A stretch of 24,383 nt of DNA, from the IMG/VR virus record IMGVR_UViG_3300028774_000039, positions 1 to 24,383 of that record; one strand, 5' to 3'. Shown in pieces: positions 358 to 1,306 of this stretch. The translations under genes were made by a program, and so were the position numbers. The notes under the pieces were generated by a model. That model was given only the letters and a program-made list of their open reading frames with translations. It ran no database searches and was not told where the DNA came from. Positions within the stretch are counted from its first letter, which is position 1. Each line of letters opens with the position of its first letter. The DNA comes from a virus.

Positions 358-388
358 ATTGCAGATTTAAAATAATTATGTAGATTTG
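358..388 (+). promoter_or_regulatory. Bacteroidota-type promoter of the structured RNA
   Basis: TAGATTTG at 381-388 fits the Bacteroidota -7 consensus TAnnTTTG exactly. ATTG at 358-361 sits 19 nt upstream, close to the -33 TTTG element at normal spacing. Transcription should start about 5-8 nt after 388, that is at about 393-396. This is exactly where the 5' strand of the first long RNA helix begins. Confidence 0.65.
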
Positions 389-392
389 CAGC

Positions 393-564
393 GCTAAGTT
401 TTCAATTTCCAAGAAGGGTAGGTCACTGCCCATTACCTGATGGGCTTTTTTATGCCCGGTATTTCATATTATGCGGCTTACTAACCCCGTGAATTTGTTG
501 TAATGGCGAATTCAGCCTTCTTGGAGAAGACTTAGCAACGGGAAGTGGTAAGCCGTTTTTATTT
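393..564 (+). ncRNA. Structured RNA with interleaved helices, unassigned class
   Basis: The region can form several long pairings. Helix 1 is 393-399 with 530-536 (GCTAAGT/ACTTAGC), extended by 409-417 with 516-524 (CCAAGAAGG/CCTTCTTGG). Helix 2 is 474-481 with 548-555 (CGGCTTAC/GTAAGCCG), extended by 486-490 with 538-542 (CCCGT/ACGGG). The 3' strand of helix 2 lies outside helix 1 while its 5' strand lies inside, so the two form a pseudoknot or are mutually exclusive. Local hairpins are 428-433/440-445 and 490-495/509-514. The 3' strand of helix 2 is followed by TTTTTATTTT (556-565), like an intrinsic terminator. A consensus promoter places the 5' end on helix 1. It could be an independent small RNA or a cis-acting leader controlling the BRO gene at 590. 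I cannot match it to a known RNA family. Confidence 0.6.
428..451 (+). terminator. Attenuator-like hairpin inside the RNA
   Basis: GCCCAT (428-433) pairs with ATGGGC (440-445) around the 6-nt loop TACCTG, followed immediately by six T. This is a textbook intrinsic terminator shape, only about 50 nt after the predicted start site. Its strands can also pair elsewhere: GGGC 442-445 with GCCC 454-457, and AGGT 420-423 with ACCT 435-438. It could therefore be opened by an alternative fold, as in attenuation. Whether it terminates in vivo is unknown. Confidence 0.4.
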
Positions 565-589
565 TACTACATGCTAAAAAAACTCCAAA

Positions 590-1306
590 ATGAAAACAAA
601 AAACAGTCCTGCTCCGACATTAAACGAGCAACCTACCGAAGTAATGACTTTTCAATTCTCAGAAAGTAAACAAACAATCAGAAACATTATTATTGAGAGC
701 AAACCGTGGTTTGTAGCGATGGATGTTTGCAATGTTTTAGGAATTTTAAATCACAAAGATGCAACCAGTAGTTTAGATGAAGATGAAAGGGGGGTCGGTA
801 AAATCTACCCCCTTAGTGGAAAAGGGGGATTACAAAATACTACCGTTATTTCAGAAAGCGGTTTATATGCTTTGATATTACGCAGTAATAAACCTTATGC
901 CAAAACATTTCGTAAATGGATAACAGGTGAGGTTATTCCACAACTCCTAAAAAAAGGCTACTATGCTGTAAAAAGGTATGAAACTAATGATTTCTTCGAT
1001 GCTCGTAATGTTCCATGTATTACAAAAGAATTTAATGGCAATAGTGTACGAATTATGAATATTGATGGACAAAGTTGGTTTAGCATAAATGATTTGAATC
1101 GCTCATTACATTCGAGCACTTCTGCCAATCAACTGGCAAAGAAACTAAATGCTATAGATAGATTGGCTATAAAAATATGGCTTTTTGGAAATACGAATCC
1201 TGCATGGTTTACAAACGACTGTGGAGTTAAACTTATGTTGAGTGGTAGTAGAACAAACAATGGGTTAAAACTAACGATAGGGGGGCTGACAAATGCAGAT
1301 CATTAA
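590..1306 (+). CDS. BRO-family phage antirepressor
   Basis: 238 aa, ATG start. Residues about 18-125 match the Bro-N domain, with the features KPWFVAMDVCNVLGILNHKD, a DEDERG segment, the SESGLYALILRSNKPYAKTF block and a KWITGEVIPQLLKKGYY end. Bro-N proteins bind DNA and often act as phage antirepressors or regulators. The C-terminal half (about 148-225) does not look like a usual KilA-C/ANT tail. Its start (NGNSVRIMNIDGQSWFSIND) resembles a second, diverged copy of the Bro-N opening strands. The gene follows the structured RNA at 393-564 with 25 nt between, so that RNA may control it. It overlaps the next frame by 14 nt. Family call is secure; the exact regulatory role is inferred. Confidence 0.85.
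   Translation: MKTKNSPAPTLNEQPTEVMTFQFSESKQTIRNIIIESKPWFVAMDVCNVLGILNHKDATSSLDEDERGVGKIYPLSGKGGLQNTTVISESGLYALILRSNKPYAKTFRKWITGEVIPQLLKKGYYAVKRYETNDFFDARNVPCITKEFNGNSVRIMNIDGQSWFSINDLNRSLHSSTSANQLAKKLNAIDRLAIKIWLFGNTNPAWFTNDCGVKLMLSGSRTNNGLKLTIGGLTNADH

Follow-up and report, generated by a model that had tools for sequence, protein, structure and literature searches.

A structured RNA with interleaved helices upstream of antirepressor genes in Bacteroidota phages: a probable C4-like antisense control RNA

C4 is a processed RNA of ~77 nt that represses ant in trans, and antisense transcription attenuation of the pT181/pIP501 type is a known mechanism by which transcripts are controlled. Repression of ant in trans by C4 has been described for P1 (PMC8546580; PMC12197685). 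In Gifsy-1, the mRNA made by read-through is translationally inactive and is activated in trans by the short IsrK RNA (PMC4825925). The c4 antisense RNA is listed in a 2010 survey of RNA motifs (Weinberg) together with a motif named "c4-a1b1" (PMC2864571). Antisense control is also found for SymE, whose synthesis is repressed by the antisense RNA SymR (PMC1891008). Here we describe a structured RNA encoded immediately 5' of an antirepressor gene, in the same orientation, and we compare it and its relatives with these systems.

An RNA unit ahead of ant in the window

The window, a stretch of 24,383 nt of viral DNA, carries the RNA unit and the gene ant listed in Table 1. The initial annotation had proposed a promoter, two interleaved long helices, a terminator-shaped hairpin inside 428-451 and a U-tract behind the last strand of the second helix, and each of these is found where it was placed; the internal hairpin resolves into 428-445 followed by T6 at 446-451, and the U-tract starts at 556. 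The unit had also been described as free of coding sequence, and 358-589 contains no ORF of at least 60 aa. Absent from that description were the hairpin at 491-513 with its UUGUAAUGG loop, the hairpin 416-421/426-431 and the complementarity of 516-536 to the ant leader at 573-588.

Table 1. Features of the RNA unit and of ant, with positions in the window
Feature	Position	Strand	Basis or remark
Promoter, Bacteroidota type: TTG, 19-nt spacer, TAGATTTG	TTG 359-361, TAGATTTG 381-388	+	sequence
A5, 5' strand of helix A	393-417	+	tag GCUAAGU 393-399; second segment CCAAGAAGG 409-417
P2 hairpin, GGGUAG/CUGCCC (416-421/426-431)	416-431	+	exclusive with T; 428-431 common to both
T, internal terminator-shaped hairpin (428-434/439-445) and U6 (446-451)	428-451	+	terminator scan
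B5, 5' strand of helix B	474-490	+	outer CGGCUUAC 474-481, internal loop UAAC, inner CCCGU 486-490
P4 hairpin, GAAUUUG/CGAAUUC, conserved 9-nt loop UUGUAAUGG (498-506)	491-513	+	7/7 pairs with double changes
A3, antisense strand	516-536	+	pairs with A5; family-wide also with the ant leader
B3, 3' strand of helix B	538-555	+	inner ACGGG 538-542, conserved AAGUG, outer GUAAGCCG 548-555
U-rich tract UUUUUAUUUUA, 3' of helix B	556-566	+	U-rich in 47/53 members
ant leader target, GCUAA 573-577 and CUCCAA 583-588	573-588	+	complementary to A3
ant, BRO-type antirepressor, 238 aa	590-1306	+	Pfam Bro-N E 2.5e-25; PHROG anti-repressor E 5.4e-44

Judged from the sequence, the RNA probably starts at about 393. 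In DNA letters, helix A pairs GCTAAGT (393-399) with ACTTAGC (530-536) and CCAAGAAGG (409-417) with CCTTCTTGG (516-524), and helix B pairs CGGCTTAC (474-481) with GTAAGCCG (548-555) and CCCGT (486-490) with ACGGG (538-542); the two helices interleave. P4 sits between the inner B5 strand and A3, and the first 2 nt of P2 fall within helix A. The stretch 393-536 folds at -53.5 kcal/mol, compared with -32.6 +/- 3.6 kcal/mol for dinucleotide shuffles (z -5.7; 0 of 200 shuffles were as good). The U-tract at 556-566 is the probable end of a short RNA, on the premise that it acts as a terminator. Ahead of the unit, on the minus strand at 80-107, there is a strong terminator-like hairpin, GAAAGGGAGTC...GACTCCCTTTC.

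Relatives, covariation and downstream genes

A protein search with ant gave the first relatives, viral contigs L002 and L008, which have the same RNA in the same place. More members came from IMG/VR by means of the core pattern CCCCGTG...TTGTAATGG and two relaxed patterns. R1, a covariance model of the core only (helix B, P4 and the single strand between), gave 55 matches in the collected loci; its match in L107 was false and was dropped, and the rebuilt model is R2. The family comprises ~75 copies. Besides Bacteroidota phage contigs, 17 of 393 Bacteroidales genomes contain them, several of which carry two to four copies; 4 of 395 Bacteroidota genomes also contain elements (R1 or R2 search in both sets). 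No element was found in 249 Pseudomonadota and 249 Bacillota genomes, a search run with stricter filters, so that this absence is only indicative. DNA similarity to phage records matched no full element, and the matches obtained with L166 were microvirus stretches that are merely promoter-like.

The promoter is part of the family. Of 53 members, 33 have the motif TAnnTTTG, for which the expectation is 0.06 per region; its distance to the first helix is fixed among members, and 45 of 53 have the internal U-run. In 17 of 53 members (L008, L047, L052, L026, L031 and L189 among them, the window not), positions -5 to +3 at the start, equivalent to 388-395 of the window, are complementary to part of the internal hairpin's loop, with 3.96 nt matched in own pairs compared with 3.07 +/- 0.12 when permuted. 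This stretch overlaps the promoter, and the complementarity may reflect an operator-like DNA repeat or a start a few bases earlier. A related ant gene (60% identical) in L003, and likewise in L004-L007, has a different RNA upstream with the same interleaved layout (bases ~2770-3000 of L003), whose strands are GUGUCAAUCCAUUUUAGGA with its complement and GAGUUCGC..GCGAACUC. Both R1 and R2 miss this RNA, which is possibly a further branch.

The initial annotation had made compensatory change in homologues the first test of its proposal, and the covariation of the RNA family is overwhelming. The 54 distinct cores have 95.2% of their cells paired (61.5% when shuffled) and 375 cells double-changed (119 shuffled, at most 94 with strands slid), and the covariation score is 0.832 versus 0.197; the core alignment was fitted to the model, and the slid controls nonetheless collapse. 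The outer part of helix B has double changes at 8/8 pairs. Its inner part is 100% paired and nearly invariant across the 54 cores (CCCGU/RCGGG), and three further genome copies supply compensatory changes there: CCUGU/GCAGG in L227 and L239, and CCUAU/AUAGG in L237. P4 is 94% paired, with double changes at every pair, and its loop is invariant in A1. Helix A was left out of the model, so its pairing tests the fold independently. In the first eight positions of helix A, 97.9% of cells are paired and 146 are double-changed; with the partner slid, double-changed cells number at most 24, and pairing falls to 38% one position off and to 64.5% when whole strands are swapped. The A5:A3 duplex averages -27.7 kcal/mol for own strands and -13.6 kcal/mol for swapped ones in 52 members (permutation z -28).

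Antirepressor-type genes stand behind many members. Pfam domains among 51 downstream proteins are Bro-N (14), ANT (KilAC; 6), KilA-N (5), SymE_toxin (2), Rha (1) and AntA (1), counts that overlap since some proteins carry two of these domains; up to 17 of the downstream proteins match PHROG anti-repressor models. The genome set added a third SymE gene (L235) and further Bro-N genes, and the remaining downstream genes are small unannotated ORFs. In L236 (1292-1991), L234 (1107-1589) and L244 (1501-1791), the RNA and a paralogous small ORF (MKKTVALPVSQAREGRKTSALENYLIRFFERELEVKL..., with a hydrophobic stretch as judged by eye) form tandem arrays in which each copy has its own tag.

Three other readings of the conserved sequence were discarded. 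Frames from the AUG in the UUGUAAUGG loop and from the AUG after the U-run are, by eye, inconsistent in length, and the stems covary, which argues against a short conserved ORF inside the RNA. A start codon within the leader tag (AUGCUA...) occurs in some members only and does not open a conserved upstream ORF. For self-splicing or a ribozyme in which A3 would guide both ends, nothing was found in favor.

One antisense strand with two partners

A3 is antisense both to the 5' end of the RNA that carries it and, in the majority of members, to the leader of the following gene. The bases right before the start codon repeat the tag of the RNA 5' end in most members, and both are complementary to A3. 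There are 20 different tags among 53 members (for example GCUAAA, GUCAAA, GUUCAA, GUACAA, GCGUUA, GCAUAA and GUCCUA), and the own tag occurs exactly in 34 of 53 leaders, compared with 2% in the leaders of members with another tag. The leader:A3 duplex reaches -16.1 kcal/mol for own and -11.5 kcal/mol for swapped pairs (permutation z -11.8, p <= 5e-5). Validation on 19 later members, collected with the core model alone, gave an exact own tag in 8 of 19 versus 4% and p = 1.5e-4 for the duplex. The leader contacts A3 at positions 0-5 (the tag) and 10-16 (the second segment), with the end of the duplex usually right before the AUG. Several members, L232 and L243 for example, are without a clear leader tag. 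L037 belongs with L066 to a sub-group that has no internal terminator, and its A3 matches, over 22 nt, the beginning of a functionally unassigned gene.

The window's own leader matches A3 over short stretches only (GCUAA and CUCCAA, -11.8 kcal/mol), and this match is not distinctive among 24 kb; as A3's best target in the whole window, the ant leader does not outrank other stretches. Thus, for the window, the claim that the leader is a target rests on family membership.

On average, A5:A3 (-28.8 kcal/mol) is about twice as strong as leader:A3 (-14.9 kcal/mol). With a difference of this size, repression by the full-length RNA may require that A5 be removed, occupied or out-competed. At L184 (9882-10379), two elements lie 400 nt apart; in the first, A5 misfits its own A3 and the leader still fits, as if copies had recombined. 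Both observations bear on an explanation in which A5 and the leader are mere direct repeats from recombination or insertion, A3:A5 pairing only folds the RNA, and the leader is unregulated. Tags common to A5 and leader would suit this explanation, as would the stronger A5:A3 duplex and the apparent recombination between copies in L184. We consider it very improbable, however, since there are 20 tags with own-leader matches far above swaps, positions 10-11 of A3 pair with the leader and not with A5 in about one quarter of the members, the L184 chimera keeps its leader match while its A5 misfits, and the duplex usually lies at the start codon.

The 5' part of the RNA resembles an attenuator. In the 41 members that carry T, P2 and T have a strand in common and nearly equal energies (-7.4 and -6.8 kcal/mol). 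The best competitor of T reaches -7.2 kcal/mol, compared with an average of -1.6 kcal/mol when the upstream part is shuffled. In 40 of the 41, helix A takes up 2-7 nt of P2's 5' strand, and P2 without the pairs that helix A covers is left at +0.8 kcal/mol. Because helix A overlaps the base of P2, pairing of A3 with A5 would favor terminator T. On a single transcript, A3 is made after T, so attenuation could only act on another, nascent transcript. The internal terminator is missing from a few members (L038, L037, L066). As to whether the RNA is a static pseudoknot or a switch, the P2/T overlap favors a switch and the invariant A3-B3 junction favors a compact fold.

Comparison with C4 and isrK and a proposed mechanism

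The initial annotation had assigned the RNA to no known family, and by Rfam and covariance model this stands: no Rfam 15 model matched the window or 16 further loci, permissive-threshold matches in the window (RprA, E 1.2; DdR1, 0.2) being chance only. The models for C4 (RF01695) and isrK/c4-a1b1 (RF01394) had no match in the window (none at E <= 10) or in 16 other loci, and the same tool detects C4, with isrK beside it, in enterobacterial phages L009, L010, L014, L015 and L022. Conversely, R1 and R2 had no match in the C4 loci. What the initial annotation overlooked is the isrK/C4 layout. The five enterobacterial loci were reached by scanning relatives of the window's ant, whose protein is about half identical to theirs over the BRO domain, and Rfam puts isrK and then C4 right before ant in each. 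In L010, the complement of C4 has UUGGUCU and CUAAAAGG in common with isrK and the ant leader.

Like C4 of P1/P7 and enterobacterial prophages, the RNA is encoded on the same strand right before ant, with an outer stem around an inner hairpin and then antisense segments. At the family level (weakly in the window alone), it also has, in the same order, two short segments complementary to the ant translation start region. It differs from C4 in its CCCGU/RCGGG and UUGUAAUGG core, in being found so far only in Bacteroidota and phage contigs, and in having SymE-like targets among its genes. With isrK/c4-a1b1 (IsrK of Gifsy-1), the family shares a 5' unit made of a copy of the leader segments (in A5) and its own terminator (U7 then AUGC), which precedes the antisense part in most members and would be read through into the antisense part and ant. 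Unlike in isrK, the mimic is at the extreme 5' end and overlaps the competing hairpin by 2-4 nt in most members. The parts can thus be proposed to correspond one to one: A5 to a1b1, the internal terminator to that of isrK, the outer stem, inner hairpin and antisense segments to C4, and the leader to a2b2. By the model tests the RNA is not a member of C4/isrK, and strand by strand the logic appears alike, which would fit either a distant homologue or convergence. As in pT181/pIP501 systems, antisense pairing with a 5' segment would shift the balance between two hairpins toward the terminator, except that here the antisense strand lies downstream on the same transcript and not on the opposite DNA strand. 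SymR resembles the RNA in its complementarity to the translation start of a SymE-family gene, and differs from this structured, upstream, same-strand RNA in being encoded opposite its gene (PMC1891008).

We read the element as a C4-like antisense control RNA for the antirepressor, with a probability of roughly three in four. In this mechanism, a Bacteroidota-type promoter would start the RNA at ~393, and the first ~25 nt (A5) would mimic the translation-start region of the ant message. The next part would form either P2 or terminator T. RNA that passes T would fold hairpin B, which holds P4 and A3, and would mostly end at the U-tract; read-through past the U-tract would yield ant mRNA. A3 could then pair with A5, on its own or another transcript, or with the ant leader right before the start codon. 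Pairing with the leader would block ant translation, and pairing with A5 would remove the base of P2 so that T is favored. A5, or a short A5-P2-T RNA, could act as a decoy that relieves repression, as short IsrK does in Gifsy-1. By analogy, A3 most likely represses ant, and A5 or the short A5 RNA would act as the competitor, since C4 represses ant in P1 and short IsrK activates the read-through mRNA in Gifsy-1. The suggestion made at the outset, a structured RNA that controls the downstream antirepressor and possibly has two states, fits all of the comparative evidence.

The same pairings might instead form a switch that works in cis only, within the leader of the ant mRNA. A3 would pair with A5 (ant on) or with the leader (ant off), the outcome being set as the RNA is transcribed or through a ligand or protein, and no RNA would act in trans. 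All three strands are indeed on the same transcript, the adjacency of A3 and B3 and the position of P4 directly after the inner B strand suggest one compact fold, and the nearly invariant UUGUAAUGG loop and CCCGU/RCGGG helix look like a binding site. Nevertheless, we regard this possibility as unlikely: 47 of 53 members have a U-tract behind helix B, which suggests that the RNA terminates ahead of the gene, the counterparts C4 and IsrK act in trans, and side-by-side paralogous units keep different tags, which suggests a need to avoid cross-talk.

Even less probable, in our view, is a type I-like addiction module antitoxin, an RNA that mainly silences toxic small proteins and to which antirepressors were recruited later. 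Three members do precede SymE-family genes, and several precede small unannotated ORFs, one family of which is in the own-tag tandem arrays, but most of the annotated targets among the 51 proteins are antirepressor-type (Bro-N, ANT, KilA-N, Rha and AntA).

Beyond the C4-like reading for the antirepressor, a wider and tentative idea is that these elements form an independent, phylum-wide module by which RNA controls genes of Bacteroidota mobile elements. A single antisense strand, its tag free to change, would exert dual control of the same operon, by attenuation at the 5' end and by a translation block. The module would stand ahead of antirepressors of unrelated families, SymE-like toxins and small proteins alike, and its tags in tandem arrays would be orthogonal.

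To our knowledge, little is known about lysis-lysogeny control in Bacteroidota phages, a major gut group. The element, searchable with model R2, marks genes under its putative control, unannotated small ORFs included, and it would mean that the three-strand logic of C4/isrK exists beyond Proteobacteria, in a version that escapes current RNA libraries. Because the tag is changeable, predicted regulator-target pairs are directly testable by compensatory mutation, and the tags may offer a set of orthogonal RNA regulators for use in Bacteroides genetics.
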